DNA from: Pelagibacteraceae bacterium AG-464-P07
GTDB taxonomy: Bacteria; Pseudomonadota; Alphaproteobacteria; Pelagibacterales; Pelagibacteraceae
DNA: 64,000 bases
Direction: 5' to 3'
Assembly (NCBI GenBank): GCA_003211695.1
Contig: QCSA01000002.1
Span: 82,590-146,589, forward strand
The notes beneath the pieces are model-generated. The model ran no database searches, was not told where the DNA came from, and saw only the letters and a list, made by a program, of their open reading frames with translations. Below are positions 57,245 through 60,418 of this stretch, piece by piece. The position numbers and the translations under genes are program-made. The stretch's first letter is position 1. Each line of letters begins with the position of its first letter.

Positions 57245-57287
57245 TCGAAAGATTGTTAAAATTATTAACTATTTTAACAATTTTCGA
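57245..57287 (-). terminator. Long hairpin at the 3' end of the 78-aa gene
   Basis: TCGAAAgATTGTTAAAAT-tattaact-ATTTTAACAATtTTCGA, one mismatch; no clear U tract. Confidence 0.5.
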
Positions 57288-57505
57288 TAAACAAAGATTA
57301 CAGCAAATATAATTATTAAGGCCGCAACCCCTTGATCTCCTATACTGTCCAATAAAGTAATAAGATTTTTTGTTACCTGTGACCCAAAAAAAGCCACATC
57401 AGGTCCGAACAATAATTCAGCAAAAACAGAGACAGCTAGTAAAAGAACACCAAGCTCAACAAACTGTCTTAGGTAATATTTAATTATATTAATCCAATTT
57501 TTCAT
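57269..57505 (-). CDS. Small membrane protein (78 aa), paralog of the 71-aa neighbour
   Basis: Two hydrophobic segments; SD AGGAGGG just upstream. Confidence 0.65.
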   Translation of the reverse strand: MKNWINIIKYYLRQFVELGVLLLAVSVFAELLFGPDVAFFGSQVTKNLITLLDSIGDQGVAALIIIFAVIFVYRKLLK

Positions 57506-57621: not shown

Positions 57622-57837
57622 TTACTTATAAAAACCTAAGATTATAATAGCAGCTACTAATCCAACTATTCCTGCATCACCAAGTCCTTGGACTAATCCT
57701 ACTATATTATCTGCTATGCCTCCTACAAATGGAACATTTCCACCTAGAAGAGAAACGACGATTCCTAAACCAAGCAGTGCTATAACTACACTGGTAAGTG
57801 ATCTAACCGTTCCTGTGAAGCCTGCTAACATCTTCAT
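57622..57837 (-). CDS. Small glycine-rich membrane protein (71 aa)
   Basis: Two hydrophobic segments; SD GGGAGGA upstream; aligns with the 78-aa neighbour. Confidence 0.65.
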   Translation of the reverse strand: MKMLAGFTGTVRSLTSVVIALLGLGIVVSLLGGNVPFVGGIADNIVGLVQGLGDAGIVGLVAAIIILGFYK

Positions 57838-59915: not shown

Positions 59916-59987
59916 TTATGCGTTGTTCCATATCCACGTAAGAACTATTAAAGCTCCCATAGATATTAACAAAATATCAGCACCCAT
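59916..59987 (-). CDS. Candidate 23-aa membrane microprotein MGADILLISMGALIVLTWIWNNA
   Basis: Complete ATG-TAA ORF; SD AGGAGGG at 59995-60001, 7 nt upstream; single hydrophobic helix. Confidence 0.5.
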   Translation of the reverse strand: MGADILLISMGALIVLTWIWNNA

Positions 59988-60063
59988 AATAAATCCCTCC
60001 TATTAAAATAATCATAAAGTTTAATTAGTTTATAGATTATAATAAAATAAAATCTAGCAATTA

Positions 60064-60123
60064 TTACTGATTAAAGAAATAATAAATTACAGCAACAACT
60101 ATCAATATTTCCCAGCCGCTCAT
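60064..60123 (-). CDS. Candidate 19-aa membrane microprotein MSGWEILIVVAVIYYFFNQ
   Basis: Complete ATG-TAA ORF; SD AAGGAGG just upstream; single hydrophobic helix. Confidence 0.5.
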   Translation of the reverse strand: MSGWEILIVVAVIYYFFNQ

Positions 60124-60195
60124 TAAACCTCCTTATTAATTAACTATATTATATAAAAAACGATCATATTGTCAAAATAATGAAATCCAAATTAA

Positions 60196-60327
60196 GTGTA
60201 TTATTGTGTTTGGTTAGGAATTCATCGTTATAAAGTAATTGATATTTCATTCGGATTTGGCCTAGGTGGATCAGTTAGAACAATTCAATGTAAAATATGT
60301 GGAATTAAGAAAATTAGAAAAGAATAG
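60196..60327 (+). CDS. Candidate 43-aa CxxC mini-protein
   Basis: GTG-start frame: VYYCVWLGIHRYKVIDISFGFGLGGSVRTIQCKICGIKKIRKE*; coding-like composition with CKICG. Confidence 0.35.
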   Translation: MYYCVWLGIHRYKVIDISFGFGLGGSVRTIQCKICGIKKIRKE

Positions 60328-60418
60328 ATTTTTTATTCGCGTCCTACTAGTTTATTAACAGTTTCTTGCAAAAGATGGCGACTTGACGTTAAAGAAATAA
60401 TTTAATGTAATAACGATT

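Follow-up and report, generated by a model that had tools for sequence, protein, structure and literature searches.

A SAR11-specific family of 19-residue single-helix microproteins, very probably carried as mobile-cassette cargo in relatives

KdpF, CydX, AcrZ and MgtS are small single-pass subunits of membrane complexes, and SAR11, a bacterial group that ranks with the most abundant in the ocean, has genomes that are among the most streamlined known. The microprotein family described here resembles these subunits in its single helix, its conserved specific residues and its lack of catalytic features, and differs from them in having no sequence match to them, in being shorter, apparently mobile and patchily distributed, and in showing no link to any one operon. 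Type I toxins of the Ibs, Ldr and Zor groups are also alike in size (about 19 aa), in their one hydrophobic helix, and in their tandem duplications and linkage to mobile elements. Unlike them, the family has no antisense promoter signal and no sequestration of the Shine-Dalgarno (SD) sequence, and it has a conserved N-terminus with an invariant Glu. The insertion of elements at tRNA or tmRNA ends, leaving displaced fragments, is well known (PMC4383910); in Methylophilaceae, tRNA 3'-end repeats mark an additive island, and a different island has tRNA-Ser(gga) at its flank and a tmRNA within it (PMC10872708). Compared with such islands (Islander type, tycheposons and Methylophilaceae fGIs), the SAR11 units differ in size, the smallest having 135-136 bp and a single 18-codon gene, and in having no integrase or xerD within them or nearby.

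Within the 64-kb stretch of DNA analysed here (the window), which comes from a genome of the SAR11 family Pelagibacteraceae, two unannotated single-helix ORFs of 19 and 23 aa had been predicted in tandem on the minus strand, and we found both in place, each with an ATG, a stop and an SD. The 19-aa gene (MSGWEILIVVAVIYYFFNQ; 60064..60123 with its stop, minus strand) runs from ATG to TAA, has homologues in relatives and carries the SD AAGGAGG (60128..60134, minus strand) at a spacing of 4 nt from the ATG. The 23-aa gene (MGADILLISMGALIVLTWIWNNA; 59916..59987 with its stop, minus strand), likewise ATG to TAA, has the SD AGGAGGG (59995..60001, minus strand) at 7 nt. Upstream of the 19-aa gene lies a sigma-70-type promoter (TTGACA-16-TATAAT; 60148..60175, minus strand), the sole 12/12 match in the window, so that the transcript would start about 18 nt ahead of the ATG. 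Peak 13-residue Kyte-Doolittle means are 2.4 for the 19-aa and 2.7 for the 23-aa peptide, values that agree with the small hydrophobic single helix of type I toxins. The SDs had been called conspicuous, and the counts bear this out: six ATG ORFs of 14-35 aa in the 64 kb have a near-consensus SD, the 19-aa and 23-aa ORFs being the only hydrophobic ones, and 60 Markov shuffles gave on average 2.5 SD micro-ORFs and 0.12 hydrophobic ones (maximum 2), against the two observed. Rfam searches of the window returned chance matches only.

Of 147 Pelagibacteraceae genomes, 32 contain the 19-aa protein by a profile search (E<1e-5, profile built from 24 homologues), the next match having an E-value of 0.1, and no matches appeared beyond Pelagibacteraceae in the sampled order and class. 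Family members are 18-20 aa long with the consensus MSG[WL]EIL-VVAVIY--N. When the genomes of 85,462 species were scanned with a degenerate pattern, 42 loci were returned, among them 38 from Pelagibacteraceae/Pelagibacterales that are without exception freestanding 18-20-aa ORFs with an SD; the remaining four are chance matches within larger unrelated proteins. We found neither frame disruption nor SD loss among the relatives, since SD, start and stop are kept in all 52 distinct homologous CDS. A dN/dS comparison, which the original prediction had proposed, gives in-frame pN/pS values of 0.18 in pairs with 80-100% identity, 0.32 at 70-80% and 0.45 at 60-70%, whereas shifting the same DNA to the +1 and +2 frames yields 0.88-1.56. 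Codons 11-18, free of any constraint from the search patterns, have in-frame values of 0.34-0.64. M1 and E5 are invariant in the 52 CDS, S2, G3, I6, L7, V9 and Y14 nearly so (Y14 in 47 of 52), and the C-terminus is variable. An exact TATAAT lies upstream of 21 of the 52 homologues (6.5 in shuffles), an enrichment of the sense -10 element; these motif counts, like the cassette contexts below, come from loci found by the family search itself and are not an unbiased sample. As far as these sequences show it, the family is specific to SAR11 and under purifying selection, and the 19-aa ORF is almost certainly a real translated gene.

For the 23-aa ORF the comparison is narrower and its standing as a translated microprotein less secure, as the sole clear homologue is MWIAYVMAGYIILNWIWNNA in the congener G002 (L013), with the SD AAAAGGAG. 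There the C-terminus and stop are as in the window, and the flanks are the same: an SBF transporter gene and the convergent DUF2784 gene (PF10861; 59498..59860, plus strand in the window), whose homologues form cassettes at tmRNA in relatives. With SD, C-terminus, stop and synteny kept in the congener, the 23-aa ORF is likely a real translated gene, probably the second cistron on the 19-aa transcript. The 23-aa and SBF genes lie about 117 nt apart in G002 and 432 nt apart in the window, and the difference of about 315 nt corresponds to a segment (60005..60380, boundaries approximate) that holds the 19-aa gene and, divergent to it, a zinc-ribbon-like small ORF (C, GIHRY, CxxC; 60196..60327, plus strand) with an uncertain GTG start and a weak phrog_14247 match. 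G002 has a separate 19-aa homologue elsewhere in its genome. Searched for DNA similarity, the intergenic region yielded mostly AT-rich noise, the exception being a match to the zinc-ribbon ORF in G016. No convincing att-like repeats surround the window segment and no copies of tRNA-Ser or tmRNA 3' ends were found near the gene (56-61.5 kb), so the island signature is absent at the window copy and we infer the mobility of the 19-aa gene from its relatives. We take the window copy and the zinc-ribbon ORF divergent to it for an older insertion that no longer has recognisable ends.

Across 59 distinct copies of the 19-aa gene, four neighbourhoods recur. Twenty-six of the 59, including the window and G016, have next to them, head to head and divergent, a gene for some 45 aa (MIKWLYLLFCKVGIHRYEKIDINYSFGPGGSTETIKCKDCGIKKIRKK), the homologue of the zinc-ribbon ORF. 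In the genus g2, the 19-aa gene sits between tRNA-Ser(GGA), or a decayed 3' end of it, and a convergent 22-aa gene together with a protein that we take to be of the NlpC/P60 type and that has an SH3 domain match, and variable islands separate the tRNA from the 19-aa gene. The empty site is seen in G042, where a single nucleotide separates the tRNA-Ser from the 22-aa gene and the NlpC/P60-type gene. Directly 3' of the latter gene in g2, we also noted a further conserved, unannotated 22-23-aa microprotein of the M[HR]WILLGIAIGLIFYLGDKYLF type with an SD (L205, L206, L207, L208, L210, L212, L215, L220 and L221). In the third setting, the 19-aa gene begins 39-47 nt past an intact tRNA-Ser(GGA) (L159, L132 and L135). 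In the fourth, it stands alone in a 135-136-bp unit between two tmRNA 3'-end copies (L146, L125 and L036, the last without an intact tmRNA in the sequence stretch examined), and a tmRNA 3'-end copy also follows the gene in L122, L130, L155 and L162. An intact tDNA at one end and a displaced fragment at the other are found at tmRNA in L146 and L125 and at tRNA-Ser in G050, G076, G149 and G018. Copies of tRNA-Ser of 63-83 nt separate stacked islands in relatives; for example, in G050 the intact tRNA-Ser is followed by copies of 75 and 66 nt at 96-98% identity, with similar arrangements in G076, G149 and G119, and these serial copies we read as the mark of stacked insertions. Taken from this sequence evidence, the 19-aa gene is very probably mobile-cassette cargo in relatives, at the 3' ends of both tRNA-Ser(GGA) and tmRNA.

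Extra 23-nt copies of the tmRNA end are present at 17 of 34 tmRNA loci, none in reverse orientation, at spacings of 135-1958 bp (median 505), and L255 has a near-empty site; 30 tmRNA loci of one genus had been picked irrespective of microprotein presence. The intervals mostly hold one or two genes, encoding a protein presumably of the superoxide dismutase type, DUF2784, secreted proteins or single-helix micro-ORFs (METFVFGVIVIGIVLHFFG, MDPATAVVAFIAVIYIAQHFLG and MDPVVTIAALIAFAYLLDSII). At L228-L257 (for example L257:1772-3145, L241:1773-1978 and L234:1773-1966, tmRNA strand), mostly single-gene units follow a SAR11 tmRNA, with near-exact copies of the tmRNA 3' end (GGCACCTGGCAACAGAACGCCCC) between them, and several of the units hold further single-helix micro-ORFs (19-22 aa). 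The motif TGCGTATTGGCGTTAACACTTATTAAT opens the unit after the tmRNA 3'-end copies in L228, L232, L239, L247, L248, L252 and L257 and might belong to a recombination site. G002 has five tandem single-helix ORFs of 17-20 aa, two of them identical, with tRNA-Ser(GGA) on one side and a gyrB-like gene on the other (L222:3330-4342, reverse-complemented). Overall, the tandem arrays at the hotspots of relatives consist of other single-helix genes of 16-22 aa, and such micro-ORF arrays terminate in terminator-like hairpins. No integrase was found by the 19-aa genes, and no PF00589 protein on the contig stretches that hold the gene; there is generally one PF00589 protein per genome (two in G071), which is probably Xer. 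Without a linked tyrosine recombinase, recombination, if still active, would have to rely on a host or phage enzyme. These cassettes might tentatively be united in a SAR11 mobile superfamily of 16-23-residue single-helix microproteins, whose 135-200-bp units recombine at the 3' ends of tRNA-Ser(GGA) and tmRNA with no integrase linked to them and each contribute one interchangeable membrane peptide, all serving a common physiological purpose, for instance phage exclusion or the tuning of transporters; we hold this wider proposal to be doubtful.

A strong promoter, an SD left open and purifying selection together suggest that the peptide is made constitutively, and from sequence and context we predict an accessory function for it. 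It would insert into the membrane as one short helix, with the acidic N-terminus outside and the polar or basic C-terminus inside, an orientation suggested by the charge distribution; the hydrophobic stretch, at 12-13 residues, is shorter than one would expect of a full membrane span. Conservation in the SGWEIL face (S2-G3-W/L4-E5-I6-L7) and at Y14 suggests contact with a specific partner rather than bulk membrane disruption, and through these residues the peptide would bind a larger membrane protein and act as its modulatory accessory subunit. The genes next to the 19-aa gene differ between genera. We put the chance of such a partner-binding subunit a little short of even. The 23-aa ORF would belong to the class as its second member, either younger or evolving faster, probably on the same transcript. 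Taken as a whole, our preferred reading, with a probability of roughly 0.55, is that these are genuine protein genes, moved as cargo, for a constitutive single-pass peptide that acts with a larger partner.

The hotspot setting makes a phage-defence or superinfection-exclusion peptide the strongest rival: by altering the inner membrane, a receptor or a translocation protein, it would make phage DNA entry or lysis fail. Patchy accessory distribution, hotspot cargo and tandem arrays of divergent like genes agree with such a role, and a Methylophilaceae defence island with a tRNA-Ser(gga) flank and a tmRNA inside offers a similar setting (PMC10872708). However, PADLOC gave no match, a pattern scan of 2.9 million viral contigs found no homologue, and the cassette neighbours (superoxide dismutase-like, DUF2784 and secreted proteins) are not known defence genes, leaving this explanation unlikely. 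PADLOC, PHROGs and NCBIfam together returned no informative match. An origin in phages was also rejected, as megablast found no match in phages and pattern scans of viral contigs gave zero and two stretches, the two being a 28-aa frame without SD and a longer unrelated protein.

Less probable again is a type I toxin-like peptide in the style of IbsC or ShoB, which would depolarise the membrane, be restrained by an antisense RNA and help its element persist. Size, hydrophobicity, tandem duplication and mobile-element linkage all agree with it, and IbsC is also 19 aa long (PMC8309996), but the centre and C-terminus of IbsC are critical and loss of its N-terminus is tolerated (PMC8309996), the reverse of the conserved N-terminus seen here. 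Moreover, sigma-70-type antisense -10 or -35/-10 motifs across the 52 copies do not exceed shuffled expectation (14 vs 17 and 16 vs 16.7), a count that RNAs encoded in trans or made from non-sigma-70 promoters would escape; an anti-SD is absent from leader and ORF in all 52, the SD core is about 57% unpaired and the fold of leader plus ORF has a z-score of -0.03, so that a 12/12 promoter with an open SD would mean an unrestrained toxin. We give very little weight to leader peptides or translated regulatory uORFs governing a downstream gene: a promoter and SD with a short ORF close to the transcript start would suit them, but in the window and most relatives any large gene that comes next is convergent or lies on the opposite strand, it is the amino-acid sequence that is conserved, and the arrays finish in terminator-like hairpins. 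That the ORFs arose by chance, in intergenic DNA or in a region of non-coding RNA, is as improbable: very short ORFs are frequent by chance, yet hydrophobic SD micro-ORFs are expected at 0.12 per 64 kb and the homologues show frame-specific substitutions, a pattern that rules out chance for the 19-aa ORF.

We regard the finding of a SAR11-specific microprotein family, mobile-cassette cargo in relatives, as real. Despite its streamlining, SAR11 retains 18-codon genes with strong expression signals at several integration sites, and these cassette genes thus offer a testable case for the lower size bound of a selected, horizontally moved gene. The protein class is overlooked by annotation owing to size cut-offs and the lack of a Pfam or NCBIfam model; our comparison with these curated profiles covered 20-aa family members and the 23-aa ORF and gave no match except an insignificant one to DUF4748 (E 0.03). 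Large smORF catalogues take ORFs from 30 nt (PMC11364881) and may therefore hold sequences of the 19-aa type unnamed. The literature that we searched held no publication on such cassettes or microproteins in SAR11, an absence that is not proof.

The original prediction had further grouped the two microproteins with a pair of ORFs near 57 kb as four small ORFs of the same style. This pair, a 71-aa (c9; 57622..57837, minus strand) and a 78-aa (c8; 57269..57505, minus strand) conserved membrane protein, belongs to a separate multi-helix family, with two or three predicted helices, 70-90% (71-aa) and 69-82% (78-aa) identity of homologues to the window copies, and no Pfam, NCBIfam or PHROGs match. 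AlphaFold models are weak (pLDDT 71 and 65, respectively). About 31 of 147 genomes have both genes, always near each other, and the 71-aa protein is tRNA-Ser hotspot cargo in relatives. Seven of the 147 genomes have both the pair and the 19-aa gene, against a chance expectation of 6.7, and a four-gene operon was therefore rejected. What stands of the grouping is the hotspot shared in other genomes: the pair occupies the same tRNA-Ser hotspot as the 19-aa gene in g2, which is why the two lie side by side in G005, G092 and G137. No 78-aa homologue was found in viral contigs; in one contig of the viral collection (L225:40-165), 42 N-terminal residues of a 71-aa-family protein run on into unrelated sequence, either a chimera or a recombination junction.
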